Part shown: positions 6,410 to 55,123 of the stretch, one piece after another
How the letters are laid out: each line of letters opens with the position of its first letter
Numbering within the stretch: position 1 is the stretch's first letter
Assembly (NCBI RefSeq): GCF_002198115.1
Contig: NZ_NGNR01000002.1
Span: 62,001-126,000 of the forward strand
Direction: 5' to 3'
Source of the DNA: Robiginitalea sediminis
Lineage (GTDB): Bacteria; Bacteroidota; Bacteroidia; Flavobacteriales; Flavobacteriaceae
DNA: 64,000 nucleotides
Notes under the pieces: generated by a model
Seen by the model: only the letters and a program-made list of their open reading frames with translations
Told to the model about the DNA's origin: nothing
The model's database searches: none
Position numbers and translations under genes: made by a program

Positions 6410-7027
6410 ATGGAACACTTATACTTTTTAGTCGATATGTTGGGCACGGCGGCATTTGCCGTTTCCGGGGTCCTGGTGGCCATGGAAAAGCGCCTGGACC
6501 TTTTCGGGGTAGTGATCGTAGCCGGGGTTACAGCCATTGGCGGGGGAACCCTCCGGGACCTGCTTATAGGCAGTACCCCGGTTACGTGGATGGCAGACCC
6601 CCGCTACCTGTACCTGATCCTGGCTACGGCTATTTTTGCGGTGCTTTTCCAGAGCAGGCTCAAGTACCTCAGGCGCTCGTTGTTCCTCTTCGACACCATA
6701 GGCATTGGCCTCTACACCCTGGTGGGCATTGAAAAAGGGCTTTCCGCTGGCCTTTCGCCCCTTATATGTGTAGTTCTGGGGACCATGACCGCCTGTTTTG
6801 GCGGGGTAACCCGGGACATCCTCTGCAATGAAATCCCGGTGATTTTCCGAAAGGAGATTTACGCAACGGCTTGTATTGTGGGCGGCGGGCTTTACTTTCT
6901 ATTCCTGCGGGCGGGTATGGGGGAGTCCTATGCCTACCTGTCGGGCATCGGGGTGGTAATCCTGGTTCGGCTGCTTGCCGTGCGCTTCCACATTGCCCTG
7001 CCCGATATCTACAGGGCTAGACGGTAG
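6410..7027 (+). CDS. Trimeric intracellular cation (TRIC) channel family membrane protein (UPF0126)
   Basis: 205 residues from ATG at 6410; the longer upstream frame is ignored because it overlaps the divergent amidohydrolase gene and lacks family similarity. The protein is almost wholly hydrophobic, with about seven membrane spans in two homologous halves, each with the glycine-rich signature (AIGGGTLRDLL in the first half, CFGGVTRDILCNEIP in the second) that typifies bacterial TRIC/UPF0126 channels. Bacterial TRICs conduct K+/Na+; others of the family have been linked to glycine uptake. It stands alone, converging on the cyclophilin gene with a 4-bp gap. Confidence 0.92.
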   Translation: MEHLYFLVDMLGTAAFAVSGVLVAMEKRLDLFGVVIVAGVTAIGGGTLRDLLIGSTPVTWMADPRYLYLILATAIFAVLFQSRLKYLRRSLFLFDTIGIGLYTLVGIEKGLSAGLSPLICVVLGTMTACFGGVTRDILCNEIPVIFRKEIYATACIVGGGLYFLFLRAGMGESYAYLSGIGVVILVRLLAVRFHIALPDIYRARR

Positions 7028-7031
7028 GCCC

Positions 7032-7751
7032 CTATTCTAGGACTTCTGCCTTTAAGATGTAGATGTTTTTCATGGGCCATTCCCCATCGTCTATTTCCAC
7101 CTGGTTGATGGCATCGACCACATCCATCCCATCCACCACCTTTCCGAAAGGGGTGTACTCCCCGTCCAAATGGTAAGACCCCGGGTCGGTTACCACGATA
7201 AAAAACTCAAAAGGGGAGGCCAGCATATGGGGGTTGTCGATTTCGCTGGAGGGCATCGAGAGGGTCCCCCGGTGGTGGCGGTGGCCCTTCCGGGTATCCG
7301 GGGGGAGGAGGTAGCGCCCGATGGCCCGCCGTTTGTCTGCCGTTTTGCGGTTGTCTGCATTGCCCCCCTGGATGATGAAATTCGGGACCACCCGGTGGAA
7401 CATGGTGCTGTCGAAATACTGCTGTCGGGCCAGGTAGATGAAATTGGCCTTGTGGTAGGGCACGTTGTCGTAGAGTTCCACGGTAAAGGAACCCATGGTC
7501 GTGGTTAGCTTTACCCGGTTGGCTTTCAGTCCTTTCTGGTATTCGAAAAAGAAGGGGATGGCGTTGTCCTCATTTAGGCGGGTGGTATCCTTTTCGGCTG
7601 TCTCCGCCTCAGCTTCGGCCTTTAGGGTGTCCAGGGCCTGCATTTCCAGGGTTTCCGCCTTGTCGGGCACGGATTTATTTTGTTCCTTACACCCTGGCAC
7701 CAAAACCGATGCCAACAGGGTTATTCCCAGGATTACGCGTTGTCTACACAT
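7032..7751 (-). CDS. Cyclophilin-type peptidyl-prolyl cis-trans isomerase lipoprotein
   Basis: 239 residues. The N-terminus ends in a lipobox (LVPGC), so the protein is expected to be lipidated; a short acidic/charged linker follows. Residues about 80-239 are a cyclophilin fold: TMGSFTVELYDN, MFHRVVPNFIIQGG (active-site FHRV...QGG), and DGEYTPFGKVVDGMDVV at the end. It should catalyse prolyl isomerisation of envelope proteins. The start codon overlaps the start of the divergent Nudix gene in the palindrome CATG at 7749-7752; the lipobox would be lost with any later ATG, which supports this start. Confidence 0.93.
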   Translation of the reverse strand: MCRQRVILGITLLASVLVPGCKEQNKSVPDKAETLEMQALDTLKAEAEAETAEKDTTRLNEDNAIPFFFEYQKGLKANRVKLTTTMGSFTVELYDNVPYHKANFIYLARQQYFDSTMFHRVVPNFIIQGGNADNRKTADKRRAIGRYLLPPDTRKGHRHHRGTLSMPSSEIDNPHMLASPFEFFIVVTDPGSYHLDGEYTPFGKVVDGMDVVDAINQVEIDDGEWPMKNIYILKAEVLE

Positions 7752-8391
7752 GAAGTTTGAGGATTTTTCCCGTTCGGTCGCAAAAATAAAAAAACTTCCC
7801 CTACCGGGTCGGGAGGCCCATTACGAGATGGCCCCCAGGATGCGTGTAGAAGAGCTGGAGCGCATGGCTGCTGTCCCGGATTCTGCCCGGCAGGCCGGGG
7901 TCATGGCCCTGTTTTATCCCGGTGCGGATGGGGCGGCCAACCTGCTGTTGATCCTGCGCCCGTCTTACCCGGGGGTACACTCCGGCCAGGTGGCCCTGCC
8001 GGGGGGAGGCTGGGAGCCTGCAGACGCCGATTTACTCCAAACTGCACTTAGAGAAACCCGGGAAGAGGTAGGGGTTCCGGAAACCCATATCGAGACCCTC
8101 CGCCCGCTGAGCCCACTCTATATCCCGCCCAGCAATTACCAGGTAAGCCCGCATGTGGGCCTTTGCCACACGACGCCGGCGTTCCGGCCGGACCCGGCAG
8201 AAGTCGCCGGGATCATTCATGTTCCGGTGCCCCACCTGATAGCTCCCGGAAATATCATTAGCCGGCCCATGTCAACCTCCTATGCCCAAAACATTGAAGT
8301 TCCGGCATTTGCCCTTCAGGGCCATGTGGTATGGGGGGCCACAGCCATGATATTAAGTGAACTGCGGACCTTAATACGGCAGGTCATCTGA
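7750..8391 (+). CDS. Nudix hydrolase, CoA pyrophosphatase-like
   Basis: 213 residues from ATG at 7750 (MKFEDFSRSVAKIKKL); the upstream extension of the frame runs antisense through the cyclophilin gene and is rejected. It carries the coenzyme A pyrophosphatase (UPF0035) signature LRPSYPGVHSGQVALPGGG followed by the Nudix core RETREEVGV, which binds Mg2+ and the pyrophosphate. Likely hydrolyses CoA or acyl-CoA derivatives to 3',5'-ADP and phosphopantetheine. Its ATG overlaps the ATG of the divergent cyclophilin gene by 2 bp, so its promoter must lie inside that gene. Confidence 0.88.
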   Translation: MKFEDFSRSVAKIKKLPLPGREAHYEMAPRMRVEELERMAAVPDSARQAGVMALFYPGADGAANLLLILRPSYPGVHSGQVALPGGGWEPADADLLQTALRETREEVGVPETHIETLRPLSPLYIPPSNYQVSPHVGLCHTTPAFRPDPAEVAGIIHVPVPHLIAPGNIISRPMSTSYAQNIEVPAFALQGHVVWGATAMILSELRTLIRQVI

Positions 8392-45698: not shown

Positions 45699-46289
45699 TT
45701 ACCCGTGTACGGTTTCCTTTTTTCCGAGGTCCTTCATGATGGAGGCCTCGTACTCCAGCAGGGCCTGCCATTTGCCGTCTACCTCGGCCTTCTTCCCGTA
45801 TTGGCGGGCAAATTTCAGGAACAGGGTATAATGCCCCGCCTCGCTGATCATGAGTTTGCGGTAGAATTCTGCCAGGTCTTTGTCCTGGAGTTCTTCGGAG
45901 AGCAGGCGGAAGCGTTCGCAGCTGCGCGCCTCAATCAGGGCGGCGTAGAGCAGGCGGTGGACGAGTTGCTCCTCCCGGCTCCCGCCCTTGGGGAAGAATT
46001 TCATGAGTGCCACCACATATTCGTCCTTCCGGTAGCGCCCCAGGGTTTTGCCCCGGGCCAGGATACGGTCGTGGACCATCTTGAAATGCCCCATTTCCTC
46101 CCGGGAAAGGGCTACCATTTCTGTAACCAGCTCCGGGTACTCCGGGAAATTCACGATGAGGGAAATAGCGGTACTGGCTGCTTTTTGCTCGCAAAAGGCG
46201 TGGTCGGTGAGGATTTCGTCGATATTTTTTTCCACGATATTGACCCAACGCGGGTCGGTAGGCAGTTTTAATCCGAGCATGGCAGTCAC
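45699..46289 (-). CDS. miaE: tRNA-(ms2io6A)-hydroxylase MiaE-like di-iron protein
   Basis: 196 residues (or from ATG at 46280). Ferritin-like four-helix bundle with carboxylate/histidine metal ligands in FCEQKAAST, SREEMGHFKMVHDR, EARSCERF and SEAGHYTLF, the MiaE pattern. It hydroxylates the isopentenyl group of ms2i6A at tRNA position 37. It converges on ppk1 (6-bp gap) and diverges from the ebo operon. Confidence 0.9.
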   Translation of the reverse strand: MTAMLGLKLPTDPRWVNIVEKNIDEILTDHAFCEQKAASTAISLIVNFPEYPELVTEMVALSREEMGHFKMVHDRILARGKTLGRYRKDEYVVALMKFFPKGGSREEQLVHRLLYAALIEARSCERFRLLSEELQDKDLAEFYRKLMISEAGHYTLFLKFARQYGKKAEVDGKWQALLEYEASIMKDLGKKETVHG

Positions 46290-46373: not shown

Positions 46374-46381
46374 TAATTTTG
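46374..46381 (+). promoter_or_regulatory. -7 box for the ebo operon
   Basis: TAATTTTG matches TAnnTTTG exactly, 50 bp upstream of the eboA ATG. No TTTG was found at -33. Confidence 0.5.
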
Positions 46382-46431: not shown

Positions 46432-47286
46432 ATGAGTGAAGCAAACCTCCCGGACCTCCTCCGGGGCTTATTGTCCCGGGCGGCAGATGCCGATGCCACA
46501 GATTGGCTGGAATCCCGTCTCCCGGAGATCCTGGACCCACCCTCGGCGAGGAACCTTTTTCTGACCTACAGCCTGGTTGGCCGTACATTCCCGGATCGGG
46601 AAGTTACAGGCATCGATGGGGATACCTCCGGGGTGCACGCCTATCTTAGCCGGCATGGCATCCGCCAGGGTGAGCTGGCGCGGGTCTACCTGCTTGCCAG
46701 GGCCCTGGTCTCCGACCCGGAATACTTTACCCCAAAGGTCCGGCAACTGGCCCAGGTAGCCGATACGGGGGAATTAGTGACCTTCCTGAGGTACATCTCC
46801 CTGTTGCCCGGGTGCGAGGCCTTTGCGGATACGGCCGTGGATGCCCTGCGGACGAACATCGCAGACGTTTTCAAGGCTATCGCCCTGGACAATCCCTACC
46901 CGGCAGCCCATTTCAATACCCAACAGTGGAACCAGATGTACCTGAAAGCGGCCTTTATGCAATTGGACCTGCTGGCCATCCCCGGGGTGGAATCCCGGGC
47001 CAACCCGGACCTGGTACGCATCATTTCAGACTACGCACACGAGCGGTGGGCGGCTTCCCGAGAGATAGACCCCATCTTCTGGCGGCCGGTTTCCCCATTT
47101 CTGGCAGGAGCCCTGCTGCAGGATATGCAACGCCTGCTTTCCAGCCCCAACCCGGCGGAACAGCAAGCGGGTTATTTGTGCTGCAGGGCCTCCGGTAAAC
47201 CCGAAGCCCGGGAACTGATCTCTGGCCACCCTATGGACAACGCATATTCGGAATCCCCCTTTGGATGGGAAGACATAAACGCATGA
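46432..47286 (+). CDS. eboA: EboA family protein
   Basis: 284 residues, no signal peptide, mostly helical. Family-typical segments are GELVTFLRYISLLPGCEAF, AIALDNPYPAAHFNTQQWN and QMYLKAAFMQLDL. EboA proteins have no known catalytic motif; the ebo genes were described in eustigmatophyte endosymbionts and in cyanobacteria, where they are needed to move scytonemin precursors to the periplasm. First gene of a six-gene operon; ATGA overlap with eboB shows translational coupling. Confidence 0.9.
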   Translation: MSEANLPDLLRGLLSRAADADATDWLESRLPEILDPPSARNLFLTYSLVGRTFPDREVTGIDGDTSGVHAYLSRHGIRQGELARVYLLARALVSDPEYFTPKVRQLAQVADTGELVTFLRYISLLPGCEAFADTAVDALRTNIADVFKAIALDNPYPAAHFNTQQWNQMYLKAAFMQLDLLAIPGVESRANPDLVRIISDYAHERWAASREIDPIFWRPVSPFLAGALLQDMQRLLSSPNPAEQQAGYLCCRASGKPEARELISGHPMDNAYSESPFGWEDINA

Positions 47287-48197
47287 CAATGGAACACGAT
47301 TTGAAATTCATAGATCCCCACGTCCACATGACCTCCCGCACCACGGACGATTACGAGGCCATGGCGGCCGCCGGGGTGGTAGCGGTAATCGAACCCTCCT
47401 TCTGGCTGGGGCAACCCCGGACCCAGGTGGGTTCCTTCCAGGACTATTTCAGCAGCCTGGTGGGGTGGGAGCCGTTCCGCGCAAGCCAGTTCGGGATCAA
47501 GCATTATTGCACCATCGGGCTGAACTCCAAGGAGGCCAACAATGAGCCGCTGGCAGAAGCGGTCATGGAACTGTTGCCCCTGTACCTCCACAAGGAAAAT
47601 GTGGTGGGTATAGGCGAAATCGGATACGACGACCAGACCCCGGCAGAGGATAAATATTTCAGGGCCCAGCTGGAACTGGCCCGGGAACTGGGGATGACTG
47701 TACAGGTGCATACCCCGCACCGGGACAAAAAGGCCGGCACCATCCGCAGTATGGAAGTATGCCTGGAACACGGCCTGGACCCATCTCATGTGATCATCGA
47801 CCACAACAACGAGGAAACCGTGCAGGAGGTTCTGGACCGCGGGTTCTGGGCAGCCTTTACGATCTACCCCAAGACCAAGATGGGGAACGAGCGCATGGTA
47901 GAGGTGGTCCGCCGCTTTGGCAGCGAACGCATAATTGTGGACAGTTCTGCAGACTGGGGCGTATCCGACCCCATGGCCGTCCCAAAAACGGCTTCCCTCA
48001 TGCTTCGCAGGGGAATTGACCGCGTCCATGTGGAGCGCACCTGTTATTCCAATGCCCTGGAAGCCTACAGCATGAATAGCTCCATGAAAGAAGCAGACTG
48101 GGAACAGGCCGGAGGTATAGACCAGCGAAAACTCTTCAACGACAACAGTGTACTGCGGGGGCAGCAACCCCGGGTAGATACCGACCAGATCAGTTAA
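47283..48197 (+). CDS. eboB: EboB: TatD-like metal-dependent hydrolase
   Basis: 304 residues from ATG at 47283 (MTMEHDLKF), overlapping the eboA stop as ATGA. TatD-type amidohydrolase barrel: FIDPHVHMT (HxH metal pair), VGIGEIGYDD, TVQVHTPH, IIDHNNEET and VDSSADWG, which carries the final Asp. The motifs are intact, so it is probably active, but its substrate is unlikely to be DNA, given the operon context; a small-molecule phosphate or amide is possible. Confidence 0.88.
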   Translation: MTMEHDLKFIDPHVHMTSRTTDDYEAMAAAGVVAVIEPSFWLGQPRTQVGSFQDYFSSLVGWEPFRASQFGIKHYCTIGLNSKEANNEPLAEAVMELLPLYLHKENVVGIGEIGYDDQTPAEDKYFRAQLELARELGMTVQVHTPHRDKKAGTIRSMEVCLEHGLDPSHVIIDHNNEETVQEVLDRGFWAAFTIYPKTKMGNERMVEVVRRFGSERIIVDSSADWGVSDPMAVPKTASLMLRRGIDRVHVERTCYSNALEAYSMNSSMKEADWEQAGGIDQRKLFNDNSVLRGQQPRVDTDQIS

Positions 48198-48198
48198 G

Positions 48199-49104
48199 AT
48201 GCAGCCGGATGCCCTGCGCGGATGGGTGCAGCTGATGCGCCCGGCCAACCTGCCCACGGCGGCAGCCGATATTGTGGCAGGAACGGCCATTGCTGCAGGC
48301 CTCACCGGTATGGATGTTTCCGGTCTGGCCCTGGCCGACCTGCTTTTGGGTTTGCCATACCTGGTGGGCAGTTCTGTATTCCTTTACGCGGGTGGGGTGG
48401 TCCTGAACGATGTTTTCGATGCCGAAACAGATCGGAAGGAGCGGCCTGAAAGGCCTATCCCCAGGGGTGCAGTAACCCAACGCGCTGCGGGGTACTTCGG
48501 CACGCTACTCCTGTTGGCAGGCGTTGCGGCAGCGGCAGGTCACAGCCTTCCGAGTGCAGCCATCGCTGCGGTACTAGCCCTCTCCATCCTCGCCTACGAT
48601 GCGGTGGCCAAGAAACACGCCTTCTTCGGACCCCTGGTCATGGGGTTGTGCCGGAGCCTGAACCTATGGTTGGGAATGAGCCTGGTTTCCGATGCGTTTT
48701 ATCCCGCCTTTCTGGCCGTGCCCCTGGTCTACATCTTTGCGGTTACCACCGTGAGCAGGGACGAGATAGACGGGGGGCGCAAAAAGCCGCTGATTCTGGC
48801 GGGCATTTTATACGCTATTGTTATTTTTAGCGTTGGTATCCTGGTGGCCTATGGCACCGGTCACCTGCTGTATACCCTGCCGTTTATGGCCATGTTCGGC
48901 CTGATGGTTTTCCGGCCCCTTGCGGGGGCGTTCCGGGATCCGAGTCCGGAGCATATCCGAAAGGCCGTTAAATGGGGTGTAATCGGTATCATTGCGCTGG
49001 ATGCCTGCTGGGCTGCCGGAATGGGCACCTGGTGGCTCGGGGTTGTCGTGCTGGCACTCCTTCCCCTTTCCCGCGCTCTGGCCCGCGGCTTTGCCGTGAC
49101 CTAA
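48199..49104 (+). CDS. eboC: EboC: UbiA-like prenyltransferase
   Basis: 301 residues with eight or nine membrane spans. The first Asp-rich motif is intact (LNDVFDAETDRKERPERP, NDxxDxxxD), which binds the Mg-prenyl diphosphate; the second lies near ILAYDAVAKKH. It should attach a prenyl chain to an aromatic or cyclitol acceptor in the membrane. It starts 1 bp after eboB. Confidence 0.9.
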   Translation: MQPDALRGWVQLMRPANLPTAAADIVAGTAIAAGLTGMDVSGLALADLLLGLPYLVGSSVFLYAGGVVLNDVFDAETDRKERPERPIPRGAVTQRAAGYFGTLLLLAGVAAAAGHSLPSAAIAAVLALSILAYDAVAKKHAFFGPLVMGLCRSLNLWLGMSLVSDAFYPAFLAVPLVYIFAVTTVSRDEIDGGRKKPLILAGILYAIVIFSVGILVAYGTGHLLYTLPFMAMFGLMVFRPLAGAFRDPSPEHIRKAVKWGVIGIIALDACWAAGMGTWWLGVVVLALLPLSRALARGFAVT

Positions 49105-49113
49105 AAACCCGAC

Positions 49114-50280
49114 ATGAAACGACGTATTGAGAAGTTTTTTTCTGTCCCCTTCCGGCACAGGCTGCTGTTTACCCAGGACGTCTTTAATCCCGGTAACAGC
49201 CTCCTGGCAGATGTCGTGGGGGAGTACCGTCCGGATACCCGCGTAAAGCTTTTGTTTGTGGTGGATTCAGGGGTCATGCAAGCCCATCCGGGCCTGGAAA
49301 AGGCCATCCGCGCCTATTGTGAAGCCCACGCCTCCCGCCTTCAAGGAACAGGGTTTCTCACGGTACCCGGGGGGGAAGCTGCCAAACAGTCCGAAGACCA
49401 CGCCCAGGAGGTGCTCAAAGCCATCGACCGCCATAAAATATGCCGGCATTCTATCGTAGTTGTGATTGGTGGCGGGGCAGTAATCGACATGGTGGGCTAT
49501 GCAGCAGCCATTGCACACCGGGGGGTACAGCTTATCCGGATCCCAACAACCGTCCTGGCCCAGAACGATGCCGCGGTTGGCGTAAAAAACGGCCTGAACC
49601 ATTTTGGCAAAAAGAACTTCATCGGGACCTTTGCCGTCCCGCTGGCCATACTCAACGACGCCCTTTTCCTGAACACCCTCGAAGACCGCGACTGGATAGC
49701 CGGCACGGCGGAAGCGGTAAAAGTGGCGCTGATCAAGGATGCCGAGTTTTTCGAATTTCTCGAGGCCAATGCAGCTGCCTTGCGCAAGCGGAGCCCCCAG
49801 GCTATGGACCACCTTATCTACGAATGTGCCGAGCTCCATATGGACCATATTGCCCAAGGAGGAGACCCCTTTGAGAGCGGGTCCTCAAGACCCCTGGACT
49901 TCGGACACTGGGCGGCCCATAAACTCGAACACCTTACCGGGTACAACATCAGGCATGGAGAAGCCGTAGCCATCGGGATGGCCATCGATGTGGAATACAG
50001 CTACCGGATAGGGTTGCTCGACAATGAAGACCGCCTTCGGATATACGACATGCTCCAAACCCTGGGCTTCCACCTGGAACTCCCTGAAATGGAAGCGGGG
50101 GGCATCGATGCGCTGTTGGACGGAATCGAGGAATTCCGCGAACACCTGGGCGGGGTGCTGACCATAACCCTCCTGGAGCGCATTGGCCGCAAACGGGATG
50201 TACACGAAATAGACCTGGCTACCATGAGAGAGGCCATAAGCGCCTTCCTCCCGGGCCGCCGCATAAACCGGGCTTCCTGA
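49114..50280 (+). CDS. eboD: EboD: 3-dehydroquinate synthase-like sugar phosphate cyclase
   Basis: 388 residues. NAD-binding VVVIGGGAVIDMVGYAAA, IPTTVLAQNDAAVGVKNGLN, and the metal-binding DFGHWAAHKLE and RHGEAVAIGMAID motifs of the sugar phosphate cyclase family. It is longer and different at the N-terminus from AroB. A product such as a cyclitol (2-epi-5-epi-valiolone-like or related) is possible; the substrate cannot be told. It starts 9 bp after eboC. Confidence 0.9.
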   Translation: MKRRIEKFFSVPFRHRLLFTQDVFNPGNSLLADVVGEYRPDTRVKLLFVVDSGVMQAHPGLEKAIRAYCEAHASRLQGTGFLTVPGGEAAKQSEDHAQEVLKAIDRHKICRHSIVVVIGGGAVIDMVGYAAAIAHRGVQLIRIPTTVLAQNDAAVGVKNGLNHFGKKNFIGTFAVPLAILNDALFLNTLEDRDWIAGTAEAVKVALIKDAEFFEFLEANAAALRKRSPQAMDHLIYECAELHMDHIAQGGDPFESGSSRPLDFGHWAAHKLEHLTGYNIRHGEAVAIGMAIDVEYSYRIGLLDNEDRLRIYDMLQTLGFHLELPEMEAGGIDALLDGIEEFREHLGGVLTITLLERIGRKRDVHEIDLATMREAISAFLPGRRINRAS

Positions 50281-51476
50281 TGCAGGTAGGGCAGGGGTAC
50301 CATATCAGTTATTGCACCAACATCCATCCCGGGCAGGACTGGGAAGCCACTTTTGGAGCCCTGAAACAGCACGTTACCCATATACGCCGGGAAGTTTCTC
50401 CTGAAGACCCTTTTGGCCTCGGCCTTCGGCTTTCCGACCGGGCCAGCCGGGAACTGGGGTTGGGAAATACCCTCGAAGACTTCAGCAACTGGCTGCAGGA
50501 GAACGATCTGTATGTGTTTACCATGAATGGGTTCCCATACGGGGACTTCCATGGGGAACGGGTGAAAGACCGGGTACACGAACCGGATTGGACCACCCCG
50601 GAGCGCCTGGAATATACCCGGCGGCTCTTTCGGCAGCTGCTCCGGCTGATGCCCGGAGGCACGGAGGCCGGGATATCGACTTCCCCGGTTAGTTACCGGC
50701 ACTGGCACCGTTCTGATTCCCAAAAGGATGCCGCCCTGCGCAAAGGTGCCGGGCAGATGGCCCTGGTGGCCGTGGACCTGGCGCGGATGGAATTGGAAAC
50801 CGGGAACTACCTCCACCTGGATATAGAACCGGAACCGGACGGGTTACTGGAGTGCACCCGGGATGTCCTGGACTTCTACAGGGATTACCTGCTGCCAGCG
50901 GCTATCCCTCTGATGGAGCAGGAGCTCGGTCTTTCGTCAGATAGAGCACGCTCCAGGGTCCTGAGGCATATTACCCTCTGCTATGACATCTGCCATTTTG
51001 CCCTGGCCTTCGAGCCGGCATCCCATGTCCTTCCTGCCCTCGAATCGGAGGGTATACAGGTGGGTAAGATCCAGGTGAGTGCAGCCCTTAAAATAAGGCC
51101 GGGTAATAATCGCGAGGCGGTTTTGGAGGCACTGCGGGCATTCGACGAACCCATTTACCTCCACCAGGTAACCCAGAAGACAGCCGATGGGGTTAAAACC
51201 TACCCCGACCTGCCGGATCTGTTCCGGGAAGACCCTGCCTTCAGCGAACTTCGCGCCCATTTCCACGTGCCGATTTTTACTCGGGAATTTGGGTTGCTCC
51301 AGGCCACACAGGATGAGATCCTGGAGGTTTTGGCCCATTTGAAACAAAAGCCATTTACCCGTCACCTCGAGGTGGAGACCTATACGTGGGATGTCCTTCC
51401 GAAGGGTCTCAAGGAAGACCTAACAACCTCTATCACGCGGGAATTGAAATGGCTTCTGGACGTTCTGCAGCAATGA
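50280..51476 (+). CDS. eboE: EboE: xylose isomerase-like TIM-barrel protein
   Basis: 398 residues. Starts at 50280 within TGATG, sharing one base with the eboD stop. AP-endonuclease-2/xylose-isomerase-like barrel: MQVGQGYHISYCTNIHPG, FTMNGFPYGDFHG, LHLDIEPEPDG, CYDICHFALAFE and TREFGLL. Asp/His/Glu positions suggest a metal site as in sugar isomerases. Probably an isomerase or epimerase acting on the EboD product; inference. Confidence 0.88.
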   Translation: MQVGQGYHISYCTNIHPGQDWEATFGALKQHVTHIRREVSPEDPFGLGLRLSDRASRELGLGNTLEDFSNWLQENDLYVFTMNGFPYGDFHGERVKDRVHEPDWTTPERLEYTRRLFRQLLRLMPGGTEAGISTSPVSYRHWHRSDSQKDAALRKGAGQMALVAVDLARMELETGNYLHLDIEPEPDGLLECTRDVLDFYRDYLLPAAIPLMEQELGLSSDRARSRVLRHITLCYDICHFALAFEPASHVLPALESEGIQVGKIQVSAALKIRPGNNREAVLEALRAFDEPIYLHQVTQKTADGVKTYPDLPDLFREDPAFSELRAHFHVPIFTREFGLLQATQDEILEVLAHLKQKPFTRHLEVETYTWDVLPKGLKEDLTTSITRELKWLLDVLQQ

Positions 51477-52852
51477 AAAAGACCGTAGTCATAAATGTAG
51501 TGGGCCTCACCCGGAGGTTGCTGGGGGAGCGCATGCCGCGCATCACCGAATTTGCAAGGAAGGGCCAGGCAGCGGAGATTGCCCCTGTGCTGCCTGCGGT
51601 CACCTGTACGGCCCAATCTACTTACCTTACCGGGGTACCACCCTCGGGCCATGGCATTGTGGGGAACGGCTGGTTTTTTAAAGAAGAACTGGAAGTAAAA
51701 TTCTGGAGGCAATCCAACCGCCTGGTTCAGGCACCCAAACTCTGGGAGGCGTTGCGCGCTGAGGACCCCTCCTTTACCTGTGCCAACATGTTCTGGTGGT
51801 ACAATATGTACTCTTCGGCAGATTTCAGTGTAACCCCCAGGCCCAATTACCTGGCCGACGGGCGGAAAATCCCGGATGTCTACAGCCACCCTTCCGACCT
51901 TCGGGACCGGCTTCAGAAGGAATTGGGGACTTTTCCGCTTTTCCATTTCTGGGGCCCCCGGACCACCATCCTATCCAGTGAGTGGATTGCACGGGCCAGT
52001 ATGCTTACCGACCAGTGGCACGACCCAACCCTTACCCTGATTTACCTGCCCCATCTGGACTACAACCTCCAGAGATACGGGCTGGACATGGACCGCGTGG
52101 GGAAGGACCTGGAGGAAACCGACCGGGTTACGGGGGAACTCATTGACTATTACCAAGGCAGGGGAGCGCGCGTGATCCTGCTTTCCGAATACGGCATAAC
52201 CGATGTAGACCGGCCGGTACACCTGAACCGGATCTTCCGGGAAGCCGGCTTGCTGGCTATCCGGGAGGAACGGGGCCTGGAATTGCTCGATGCCGGGGCC
52301 AGCGAAGCCTTTGCCGTAGCAGACCACCAGGTAGCCCATATTTACGTCAAAGACCCGGAGCGGCTGCCCCAGGTAGCAGCGCTGGTCCGCCAGGCCGAGG
52401 GTGTAGAGCGGGTACTGGACGGACCGGGAAAAAAAGAAGCGGGAATGGACCACCCCCGCGCCGGGGATCTGGTCGCAGTGGCAGACGCCCGGTCCTGGTT
52501 TACTTATTACTACTGGCAAGACGATGCCAAAGCCCCCGATTTTGCCCGCACGGTTGATATCCATCGCAAACCGGGTTACGACCCAGTAGAACTCTTTACC
52601 AACCCCTCAGATCCGCTGGTAGGTGCCCGGGTGGTGTGGAAACTCCTCAGGAAAAAAATGGGGTTCCGCACCCTTATGGATGTAATTCCACTTCAGGCAG
52701 AACTGGTAAAGGGCTCCCATGGGAGAATCCCGGAAGATCCGCAGGATTATCCTATCTTTATCTCAGACAACCCGGCTACCTTGCCAGAATCCCCCCTGAA
52801 GGCCACCGATGTTTACGGGCTGCTCCTGGGGGCTGCAGGGTCCGATAAATAA
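51473..52852 (+). CDS. eboF: EboF: nucleotide pyrophosphatase/phosphodiesterase-like protein
   Basis: 459 residues from ATG at 51473 (ATGA overlap with eboE; the longer frame is antiregister in eboE). Alkaline-phosphatase superfamily: nucleophile region VTCTAQSTYLTG, YLPHLDYNLQRYG, LLSEYGITDV, ADHQVAHIYV. The N-terminal strand reads INVVGL without the Asp that usually sits just before the Gly; whether this is typical of EboF I cannot say for sure. It may hydrolyse a phosphate or pyrophosphate ester of the pathway product. No signal peptide is seen. Confidence 0.88.
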   Translation: MKKTVVINVVGLTRRLLGERMPRITEFARKGQAAEIAPVLPAVTCTAQSTYLTGVPPSGHGIVGNGWFFKEELEVKFWRQSNRLVQAPKLWEALRAEDPSFTCANMFWWYNMYSSADFSVTPRPNYLADGRKIPDVYSHPSDLRDRLQKELGTFPLFHFWGPRTTILSSEWIARASMLTDQWHDPTLTLIYLPHLDYNLQRYGLDMDRVGKDLEETDRVTGELIDYYQGRGARVILLSEYGITDVDRPVHLNRIFREAGLLAIREERGLELLDAGASEAFAVADHQVAHIYVKDPERLPQVAALVRQAEGVERVLDGPGKKEAGMDHPRAGDLVAVADARSWFTYYYWQDDAKAPDFARTVDIHRKPGYDPVELFTNPSDPLVGARVVWKLLRKKMGFRTLMDVIPLQAELVKGSHGRIPEDPQDYPIFISDNPATLPESPLKATDVYGLLLGAAGSDK

Positions 52853-52859
52853 CCAAACC

Positions 52860-53213
52860 ATGAGTGCTTTCTTCAAGTATTTTTCCCTTGTCATGTTCCT
52901 TGTGTTCCTGTGGGCCGCCTATGTGCAGCTGAACGACCCGGATGCCACCAGCTGGGTGGCTATCTATCTGGTGGCTGCAGCGGGAAGCCTTTTGTTCTTT
53001 CTGGGAAAACTTCGGTACTGGTTGGCTTTGGTACTGGGGATTGCCTACCTGGCCGGGGCTTTTATCTACTGGCCGGAGACCTATGAAGGGGTTCGTTTCG
53101 GGGAGATGGAAATGGCCAATATGAACATTGAGCGCGGCCGGGAATCCCTCGGTTTGGGGATCACGGCCCTATTGTTCCTGATCCTGGGCTGGCGCATCCG
53201 CCGGGGCTCATAA
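52860..53213 (+). CDS. TMEM220-like small membrane protein
   Basis: 117 residues from ATG at 52860, 7 bp after eboF. Four membrane spans (about 5-20, 27-45, 50-65 and 95-112) and the family motif AAYVQLNDPDATSWVAIY, typical of TMEM220-like proteins. Being joined to the ebo unit it may belong to it, but TMEM220 genes also occur elsewhere. Its stop overlaps the convergent dnaX stop by 6 bp. Confidence 0.85.
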   Translation: MSAFFKYFSLVMFLVFLWAAYVQLNDPDATSWVAIYLVAAAGSLLFFLGKLRYWLALVLGIAYLAGAFIYWPETYEGVRFGEMEMANMNIERGRESLGLGITALLFLILGWRIRRGS

Positions 53214-55001
53214 CTCCAGGTCGAAGGTTTTTCTAAGGAGTTCGATGGCGGGGTTTTGTTCCCGCAGTTTCTCGTACTTTTCCCGGGGCGTAAAGGCGTA
53301 TTGGCGCTCCGTCTCCTCGTTGATGGTAATACGGAGCTGCAAGGCGTAATTGTTGAGGGTCTGCCTCAAATGGGTCATCAGCTCCAATTGGTCCCGTTCC
53401 ACTTCTTTTTTCATGGTGCTGTTGGGCAGCTCTATCCGGATGATATTTCCGTCTTCGAGTTTCGGGGTATCTGTGCCCAGGCTGGCCGCCAGGAGCTTCT
53501 TCCCCTTATCTCCTAGGGTCCGTACAAAAGCAGCCCACTCCTCCTGCATCCTGCTTTCCTCCACCGGATCTTCGGGCAAGTGCTCGGGTTCCTGGTCCTG
53601 TTCGGCCCGGATTTTCTCTAAATGGGCCTTTTTGGCCTTAATACTCGACAGCGATAAGCCCGACACCCGTTTGGAACCCTCCGGTTTCAGCAGCGGGGCC
53701 ACTGGGACCGATGTCTCCGGGGCTGCTTCAGGAGCAGGTGCTTCCTGGGGCGCCCCAGAGGCGGTTTCCTCCACAGGTTGAGGGGTGGCTGCCTGGGCAG
53801 GCTTTTCCAATTCAGGCTGCTGATTGACCGTGGATGGTACAGGTTGGGGTGTCTCCCTCTTTACTGGTGCTGCCGGTGCGGGTTGGCTGTCCCTGAAGCG
53901 GGAAGCGGGGATCAGCTCGGGGTCTTTTCTACCCTTTTTTTTTTGACCGTCTCCAAGGGAAGCCAGTCGCATCAGGCACAGCTCTACCAGGAGGCGGTGG
54001 TTTTTGCTGGATTTGTAATCCAGATCGCACTGGTTGGCTACATCCAGCGCTTCCAGCAGGAACGGCCCCGGGCAATGCCGGGATTGTTCCAGATAGCGCT
54101 TCCGGGTAGCTTCACTGGTTTCCAGAAGGGCAACGGTAGACTCGTGGGTACAGACCATCAGGTCCCGAAAATGGGAGGCCAGCCCGCTGATATAGTGGTG
54201 CCCGTCGAACCCCTGGGCGAGAACCTCGTTAAAATAGAGGAGCAGTGCGGGGATATCCCCTTTGAGGATGAGGTCCGTACTGTGGAAGTACACATCAACG
54301 TCAAGTACGTTCAGGTTTTCAGCAACTGCTTTTCGCGATAGCGTTTTCCCTGCAAAACTCACGACCCTGTCGAAGATGGAGAGGGCATCGCGCATGGCGC
54401 CGTCCGCTTTCTGGGCGATCATGTGCAGGGCTTCCTCTTCGGCTTCCACCCCCTGCTGCTGCGCGATGTATTTCAGGTAATCCACAGCGTCCTGAACGGT
54501 AATGCGTCGGAAATCGAAGATCTGGCAGCGCGACAGGATGGTGGGGATAATCTTGTGTTTCTCCGTGGTGGCCAGGATAAAAATGGCGTGCGCCGGCGGC
54601 TCCTCCAGGGTTTTTAGAAAGGCGTTGAAGGCCGACTGGGAGAGCATATGCACCTCGTCGATGATGTAGACCTTGTATTTCCCTACCTGGGGTGGAATAC
54701 GCACCTGGTCAATGAGGTTGCGGATATCGTCTACCGAGTTATTCGATGCAGCGTCCAGCTCGAAAATATTGAAGGCAAAATCCTCACCCTCCCGCTCGCT
54801 GCCGTCTTCATTGATTTTCTTGGCCAGGATACGGGCGCAGGTGGTTTTACCCACCCCCCTGGGGCCACAGAACAGAAGGGCTTGTGCCAGGTGGTTGTGG
54901 GCAATGGCGTTTTCGAGGGTGCGTGTTATGGCCTGCTGGCCCACCACGTCCTCGAATTGCTGCGGGCGGTATTTTCGTGCGGAAACAATAAAGGGTTCCA
55001 T
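53208..55001 (-). CDS. dnaX: DNA polymerase III subunit gamma/tau
   Basis: 597 residues from ATG at 55001 (MEPFIVSARKYRPQQFEDVVG). AAA+ clamp-loader ATPase: Walker A CGPRGVGKTTCAR, Walker B YIIDEVHMLS, sensor 1 ILATTEKHKIIPTILSRCQ. The four cysteines of the usual zinc module (after the Walker A helix) are missing; the stretch instead reads KKINEDGSEREGEDFAF. A Pro/Ala/Glu-rich linker (about 380-460) and a C-terminal domain follow. Loads the sliding clamp at replication forks. No frameshift signal for a gamma form was looked for in detail. Confidence 0.96.
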   Translation of the reverse strand: MEPFIVSARKYRPQQFEDVVGQQAITRTLENAIAHNHLAQALLFCGPRGVGKTTCARILAKKINEDGSEREGEDFAFNIFELDAASNNSVDDIRNLIDQVRIPPQVGKYKVYIIDEVHMLSQSAFNAFLKTLEEPPAHAIFILATTEKHKIIPTILSRCQIFDFRRITVQDAVDYLKYIAQQQGVEAEEEALHMIAQKADGAMRDALSIFDRVVSFAGKTLSRKAVAENLNVLDVDVYFHSTDLILKGDIPALLLYFNEVLAQGFDGHHYISGLASHFRDLMVCTHESTVALLETSEATRKRYLEQSRHCPGPFLLEALDVANQCDLDYKSSKNHRLLVELCLMRLASLGDGQKKKGRKDPELIPASRFRDSQPAPAAPVKRETPQPVPSTVNQQPELEKPAQAATPQPVEETASGAPQEAPAPEAAPETSVPVAPLLKPEGSKRVSGLSLSSIKAKKAHLEKIRAEQDQEPEHLPEDPVEESRMQEEWAAFVRTLGDKGKKLLAASLGTDTPKLEDGNIIRIELPNSTMKKEVERDQLELMTHLRQTLNNYALQLRITINEETERQYAFTPREKYEKLREQNPAIELLRKTFDLEL

Positions 55002-55123
55002 GGGGTACGCCTTGCGTTTTCGGATATGACCCGTAATCCGGGTCAAATACAAATATAGGGATCGGCCCGCTTACTTCGGAGGGCCGCGGGCTGGACTGAG
55101 ATGGAACTTATTAACAATATCCG

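Follow-up and report, generated by a model that had tools for sequence, protein, structure and literature searches.

Analysis of a 64-kb stretch of the Robiginitalea sediminis genome (hereafter the window, meaning this whole stretch, in whose numbering coordinates are given; the genome around it comprises 3.30 Mb in 15 contigs) revealed an ABCDEF-type ebo operon that is complete and is followed by a TMEM220 family gene as a seventh codirectional gene (Table 1). We propose, as an even call, that the ebo product is a prenylated cyclitol lipid, that this lipid assists the passage of small molecules through the inner membrane, and that TMEM220 handles it. The window operon is a further example of a published operon kind, and the prenylated-cyclitol hypothesis is itself already published; added here are the seventh gene, the replacement of the cyclase EboD by an inositol-phosphate synthase in actinomycete clusters, and two corrected enzyme readings. 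The ebo product has been an open question since the operon was named in 2016; the EboD replacement sharpens the cyclitol guess into a prediction, and TMEM220 offers a candidate membrane part for the proposed transport role.

The six genes eboA to eboF lie in this order on the plus strand at 46432-52852, with start/stop overlaps at three junctions (A/B, 4 bp, ATGA; D/E, 1 bp, TGATG; E/F, 4 bp, ATGA) and gaps at the two others (B/C, 1 bp; C/D, 9 bp). These positions, taken from the list of open reading frames (ORFs), confirm the six-gene set on one strand with three overlaps that a first-pass annotation, made from the sequence alone, had described; its range of 46432-53213 for six genes holds for eboA-F but omitted the TMEM220 gene lying inside it. 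The eboB start was set at 47283, a longer ORF beginning at 47265. Profile searches placed the six proteins in ebo or otherwise expected families, with EboC, EboE, the EboA domain, EboD, EboB and EboF all above cut-offs, while the family-level EboA model NF035937 scored 154 bits, under its cut-off of 320. Six genes in order on one strand, with EboC and EboE above their curated cut-offs, correspond to the ABCDEF type of Yurchenko et al. (2016; PMC5133447), which has the same genes, order and strand and Bacteroidetes carriers. The founding description covered eustigmatophyte plastids together with 148 bacterial species or strains, with Bacteroidetes the most represented phylum (PMC5133447), so the earlier statement that the operon is known from eustigmatophyte endosymbionts, which do carry it (PMC6092422), is correct but narrow.

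Table 1. The ebo operon of the window, the seventh gene, the candidate promoter element and the flanking genes
Feature	Position	Strand	Description
eboA	46432..47286	+	284 aa; EboA domain, 147 bits vs cut-off 50
eboB	47283..48197	+	304 aa; amidohydrolase superfamily, TatD-like; Pfam TatD_DNase, 68 bits vs 27
eboC	48199..49104	+	301 aa; UbiA-superfamily prenyltransferase; NCBIfam NF035940, 345 bits vs 250
eboD	49114..50280	+	388 aa; sugar phosphate cyclase; NCBIfam NF004852, 554 bits vs 333
eboE	50280..51476	+	398 aa; TIM-barrel (fold as published); NCBIfam NF035939, 469 bits vs 250
eboF	51473..52852	+	459 aa; alkaline-phosphatase-superfamily fold; Pfam Phosphodiest PF01663, 204 bits vs 23
TMEM220 gene (seventh)	52860..53213	+	117 aa; Pfam PF15071, 89 bits vs 27; 7 bp past eboF
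Candidate promoter element TAATTTTG	46374..46381	+	Matches TAnnTTTG; 58 bp ahead of eboA
MiaE-like flanking gene	45699..46289	-	95.7 bits vs cut-off 320; divergent from eboA; outside operon
dnaX (DNA polymerase III gamma/tau) flank	53208..55052	-	Convergent; 6-bp overlap with the end of the seventh gene; outside operon; start codon taken from the mechanical ORF list

The idea of a cyclitol head group is best supported by what occupies the cyclase position in distant clusters. A tblastn search with EboE matched 48 plasmid records, from which 18 loci were fetched with 7-9 kb on each side (8 of the 16 non-actinomycete and 10 of the 32 actinomycete records). EboD was present in all eight non-actinomycete loci and an inositol-phosphate synthase in none, whereas nine of the ten actinomycete loci encoded homologues of EboA, B, C, E and F together with an inositol-phosphate synthase, and the window EboD query gave no match at E<=1e-4 in those nine fetched stretches. 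The synthase gene adjoins the prenyltransferase gene in 9/9 of these clusters, and all six that are annotated show a 4-bp overlap between its stop and the prenyltransferase start. Thus, two unrelated ring-forming enzymes appear to fill one place. The synthase of one Streptomyces plasmid cluster (L259) matched both myo-inositol-1-phosphate synthase (mIPS) Pfam domains (170 and 101 bits) and aligned over nearly its full length with Archaeoglobus fulgidus mIPS (1u1i, E 1.7e-66); four lysines aligned with mIPS lysines, which we take to be active-site residues, are invariant in 9/9 actinomycete synthases. The L259 synthase scored 37 bits against the mycothiol INO1 equivalog (cut-off 638), and the five-membered-cyclitol-phosphate synthase 6k96 is also among its relatives (E 1e-12), so that any assignment of its exact product is tentative.

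These actinomycete clusters, recognizable by an SCO3242-family prenyltransferase, the EboA domain and EboE, further differ from the window operon in an added isomerase-like gene. In 4/6 annotated Streptomyces plasmids (L259, L260, L264, L265), the cluster lies next to a ScyD/ScyE-family gene, with a multicopper oxidase gene nearby; the ScyD/ScyE-family copy of L259 scored 256 bits against a cut-off of 80. A text search of the main text of PMC5133447 returned no mention of inositol, and the literature matches listed included no paper that connects ebo to SCO3242 or to inositol-phosphate synthase. The tenth actinomycete locus (L258) has a lone eboE at 6980-8158 among polyketide-type and monooxygenase genes, surroundings that read as an aromatic polyketide cluster. 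Also in favor of a cyclitol, in Ketogulonicigenium two Gfo/Idh/MocA genes precede eboD and an isomerase-like gene, with 29 bits against the IolE model (cut-off 290), lies past the cluster.

The residues of EboD agree with a cyclitol product, which we infer from its family. Equivalents of the Aspergillus nidulans 3-dehydroquinate synthase (DHQS) residues D146, K152, K161, N162, E194, K197, H271, H275 and H287 were kept in 58/58 EboD sequences, so that the catalytic and zinc positions are retained throughout, whereas the carboxylate-side positions are lost: at R264 there is Ser in 54 sequences and Ala in 4, at N268 Asp in all 58, at K250 a variable residue (Lys in 2/58), and at the presumed K356, a position uncertain by one, Glu in all 58. 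DHQS numbering from 264 to 275 was read off the alignment, and the other numbering and all residue roles are those presumed for DHQS. We take the lost positions to be those that hold the DHQS substrate carboxylate, and the loss of R264/N268/K356-type residues suits a substrate without a C1 carboxylate. Zinc and catalytic residues kept and carboxylate contacts lost would be the pattern of sedoheptulose 7-phosphate cyclases, and ValA (4p53) and 5tpr were among the EboD matches.

EboD is therefore probably not a DHQ synthase, as far as its sequence tells, despite the automatic name "3-dehydroquinate synthase" of its NF004852 match. That match, well above the model's cut-off, is what favors a true DHQ synthase and an operon in aromatic amino acid supply. 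We consider such a role extremely improbable, as the genome has a separate AroB-like protein with the usual Arg, Asn and Lys at the R264, N268 and K356 positions (with an alignment gap at K250), R264 and N268 are absent from EboD throughout, and EboD forms its own clade (Yurchenko et al., 2016; PMC5133447). On a Salipiger sp. CCB-MM3 plasmid (L255:7100-9001), EboD is fused N-terminally to a VTT domain (PF09335, 68 bits vs 34). The VTT family includes lipid scramblases. A wider occurrence of this fusion found no support: among 116 matching plasmid records, a single one spanned 80% or more of the fused query, and this was the query itself.

The second corrected reading concerns EboF. Its model (pLDDT 88.7) adopts the phosphonoacetate hydrolase and NPP fold (3szy, E 6.1e-17; 7n1s, E 3.4e-15), and by fold and profile match EboF belongs with the type I phosphodiesterase/nucleotide pyrophosphatase family, from which it departs in the two-metal pattern. 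Among 149 EboF sequences (60 from the sampled genomes and the window, 75 from named loci and 14 from plasmids, 13 of these from outside Bacteroidota; some organisms counted twice), Thr44, Asp196 and His416 are invariant. Val10, Gln200 and Tyr240 occur in 149/149 and Glu239 in 147 (Gly in 2), in place of the Asp, His, His and Asp, respectively, of the family. The aligned family positions are presumably the ligands of two metals (Asp, Asp-His, Asp-x3-His, His) with a Thr nucleophile; residue equivalence was taken from sequence alignments rather than structural superposition. In the model, a helix begins at residue 44 and a strand stops just ahead of Ser238-Glu239-Tyr240. The change at four metal-ligand positions makes ordinary two-metal hydrolysis unlikely, and the invariance of the altered positions argues for a selected, different role. 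Hence, EboF is unlikely to be an ordinary phosphodiesterase, and the first-pass label of phosphatase is doubtful. The residue evidence cautions against taking either automatic name, for EboD or EboF, at face value.

EboC retains the first Asp motif of its superfamily, N70-D71-x2-D74-x3-D78, in 56/56 sequences, whereas in the second Asp-rich region E189 alone is invariant (D188 in 3/56 and D191 in 1/56; the window protein has both). Among solved proteins, the closest to EboC by sequence is digeranylgeranylglyceryl phosphate (DGGGP) synthase (6m31, E 3e-11), an enzyme that, we presume, prenylates a polyol; this kinship supports a lipid product. Three further UbiA-family genes occur in the R. sediminis genome. 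In EboB, the metal-ligand-like residues D11, H13, H15, E112, H143, H174 and D224 are present in 58/58 sequences, and the nearest solved protein by sequence is 3guw (E 1.8e-20), while for EboE the sequence comparison gave no solved protein at E<=1. The AlphaFold2 model of EboA is all-helical (pLDDT 95.5); against the Protein Data Bank (PDB) it gave no relative at E<=0.001, the best being weak helical-repeat matches (E 0.08). Structure thus did not identify EboA, a good model without a PDB relative, and it neither bears out nor excludes the TPR proposal made by Klicki et al.

The seventh gene encodes a small membrane protein with several hydrophobic stretches, from a family that presumably owes its name to a human protein whose function is unknown. 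We analyzed its linkage in the best 80 of 591 confirmed ebo loci, which were ranked by likeness to the window EboE and hence are skewed to relatives (one metagenome-assembled genome (MAG) titled Neomarinimicrobiota, the rest Bacteroidota by title; several end at contig ends). A TMEM220 homologue was found in 47 of these 80 loci, less than 300 bp from an ebo gene in 38 and less than 1500 bp in 45. It lies 3' of eboF on the same strand in 25 loci, 5' of eboA on the same strand in 14 (in one at 5 kb), 5' and divergent in 5 (Chitinophaga), and 3' and convergent in 3 (two Adhaeribacter, with just E and F in the stretch, and one Cyclobacteriaceae MAG). The position 5' of eboA was seen in Sphingobacteriaceae and some Flavobacteriaceae, and in locus L157 TMEM220 stands ahead of eboE.

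Co-occurrence was assessed in two genome samples, each drawn from a larger group and the phylum sample evenly so, in which EboE scored above its cut-off in 42/199 Flavobacteriaceae and 35/392 Bacteroidota genomes. TMEM220 was present in 39/42 ebo-positive compared to 15/157 ebo-negative genomes of the family (Fisher p 2e-25) and in 27/35 compared to 27/357 genomes of the phylum sample (Fisher p 7e-20; one of the latter 27 scores below the Pfam cut-off), with kinship ignored in both tests. In a TMEM220 tree of 96 rows and few columns, copies from ebo loci do not form one clade, and some are nested among unlinked copies; the label "in the ebo locus" needs 9 changes compared to a shuffled mean of 18.6. 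This pattern is compatible with linkage having arisen, or having been lost, more than once. A text search of the main text of PMC5133447 gave no mention of TMEM220, although figures and tables outside that text could draw it as a flank, and no paper joining TMEM220 with ebo was found among the open-licence literature matches listed.

Under the proposed scheme, EboD would cyclize a carboxylate-free sugar phosphate, e.g., sedoheptulose 7-phosphate, to a keto-cyclitol, which EboE and EboB would reshape; EboC would attach an isoprenoid chain to the cyclitol at the inner membrane, EboA might serve as a helical scaffold and EboF would play a non-canonical role. TMEM220 would handle or translocate the resulting lipid, which would serve to bring small and often aromatic molecules through the inner membrane. 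The cyclitol is supported independently by the inositol-phosphate synthase in the place of EboD and by the EboD pocket, and the membrane part by the TMEM220 linkage together with the one VTT-fused EboD. The transport role is proposed because Nostoc punctiforme ebo mutants, the only known source for a part in periplasmic traffic, suggest it: the homologous genes there are needed for the scytonemin monomer to move to the periplasm, and the mutants, a set that leaves out eboD, hold it in the cytoplasm (PMC6282210). The Nostoc genes serve scytonemin, whereas the window operon stands by itself, with a miaE-like gene on one side and dnaX on the other. As to the first-pass remark that no scytonemin gene is visible, one actinomycete ScyD/ScyE query had no match in the R. 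sediminis genome, a search that had no positive control and left the other scytonemin genes aside. Homologues of ebo genes also lie inside the EDB cluster of Pseudomonas fluorescens NZI7, which is linked to indole compounds and in which transposon insertions in the eboA, eboD or eboE homologues lead to an edible phenotype (as reported in PMC6282210 and PMC9655573). In addition, a homologous gene pair (a protein of ~600 aa and a PF12902 ferritin-like protein) stands beside ebo genes in three phyla (L252:2064-5124, L256:3072-6090 and L274:6846-10127). The pair resembles a split VioB, with weak VioB model scores (28.9 and 18.9 bits vs 1250); its neighbors are ebo genes in Aureibacter and Mycetohabitans, whereas in Gloeothece they are homologues of EboB and EboD. 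The occurrence of ebo beside different presumed aromatic pathways suits a service role.

The first-pass annotation had also read the gene set as a path to a prenylated cyclitol-like lipid; its cyclitol part is strengthened by the synthase replacement and the EboD pocket, and the idea had already been put forward by Yurchenko et al. (section 3.7; PMC5133447), citing the BE-40644 precedent. The same hypothesis and precedent favor a free-standing prenylated-cyclitol metabolite, protective or antimicrobial, with no transport role and an indirect effect on export in Nostoc. We regard such a metabolite as unlikely, since one and the same scytonemin monomer builds up in the cytoplasm of the Nostoc ebo mutants studied (eboD not included; PMC6282210) and the differing neighboring pathways fit a service role. 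A broader version of our proposal is that of a general lipid-carrier system, in which a prenylated cyclitol lipid built on a ring from EboD or inositol-phosphate synthase is flipped by TMEM220 in Bacteroidota or by a VTT-type domain elsewhere and carries assorted small molecules to the periplasm. We hold this extension to be doubtful; if true, it would give the TMEM220 family its first functional setting. A further possibility is that ebo makes a prenylated aromatic such as a farnesyl-quinoline as its end product, with EboD, EboB and EboE preparing the aromatic acceptor. Maribacter and Zobellia are Flavobacteriaceae. EboC from these two and from Algoriphagus (UbiA-297; Amiri Moghaddam et al., 2022), the same gene from the same kind of operon, farnesylates 8-hydroxyquinoline-2-carboxylic acid in vitro, and the Maribacter enzyme took 6/14 aromatic acceptors (PMC9235831). 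The first-pass annotation called the compound made or moved here unknown; the assayed flavobacterial EboC qualifies that view. However, the assays were run on membranes that had not been purified and with a chosen set of acceptors, mutant R145A was equally active, and the native acceptor was not established in that work (PMC9235831). Moreover, an inositol-phosphate synthase in place of EboD misfits an aromatic acceptor, and profile scans (NCBIfam, Pfam) of the seven window genes gave no match to a quinoline-forming family. Based on these results, we consider a prenylated aromatic product quite improbable.

Several observations weigh against the prenylated cyclitol lipid handled by TMEM220. EboC does farnesylate quinolines in vitro, every acceptor tried having been aromatic (PMC9235831), and the Nostoc study detected no scytonemin monomer linked to a lipid (PMC6282210). 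No product of a complete ebo operon was found among the open-licence literature matches listed. The scheme gives EboF no defined step, the nine actinomycete clusters include four close relatives (L259, L260, L264, L265), and the VTT-EboD fusion is a single case among the 116 matching records. TMEM220 is missing from 8/35 ebo-positive and present in 27/357 ebo-negative genomes of the phylum sample, and the window TMEM220 query had no match in 18/18 plasmid ebo loci. Outside Flavobacteriaceae, it lies near ebo in 4/21 genomes of the phylum sample with both (G275, G328, G561 and G508); of the other 17, two have the genes 21 and 35 kb apart and the remainder have them farther apart or on separate contigs. 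Within the family, TMEM220 is away from ebo in 5/39 genomes (three at the miaE-dnaX site, with ebo elsewhere, and two at neither place), and four ebo-negative relatives (L104, L105, L108 and L112) retain it alone between miaE and dnaX. These unlinked copies speak for TMEM220 as a mere neighbor of ebo by shared location, with no functional part. We nevertheless find this rather unlikely, given that TMEM220 stands beside ebo also away from dnaX, in the 5', divergent and convergent arrangements described above, that the two co-occur even where unlinked, and that the tree places the linked copies with fewer changes than shuffling does. The prenylated cyclitol lipid handled by TMEM220 is thus the reading that we retain at even strength.

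The location of the operon was compared in 40 further family ebo loci, taken from the 41 other ebo-positive genomes of the sample (G088, a partial match at a contig end, was omitted). A miaE-like gene divergent from eboA is a common neighbor, and 31/40 loci lie near miaE and/or dnaX (28 near both and 3 near dnaX alone). TMEM220 was located 3' of the operon in 28 of the 40 loci (in L043 at a distance of 3.2 kb) and 5' in 4, and it was not seen in the remaining 8. The prevailing position between miaE and dnaX indicates that ebo is probably old at this site and was inherited there in Flavobacteriaceae, then repeatedly lost. A recent horizontal arrival in the R. sediminis lineage was not supported by the locus position, on which, rather than on ebo protein trees, this assessment is based. 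A divergent ebo set (L033, L035, L036, L056 and L069), with EboA 25-29% identical, is located at other sites and may have arrived separately. In another genome (G019, L072), eboE is the one ebo gene seen between miaE and dnaX, as would be left by erosion of the operon.

Upstream of eboA, the candidate element of Table 1 matches TAnnTTTG, which we take to be the Bacteroidota -7 promoter element. Among 108 eboA upstream regions (the window and 107 loci, some organisms counted twice), TAnnTTTG occurs within ~150 bp in 58, compared to 11.7 in base shuffles. The reverse strand matches in 22/108, and these sites may be promoters of divergent genes such as miaE.

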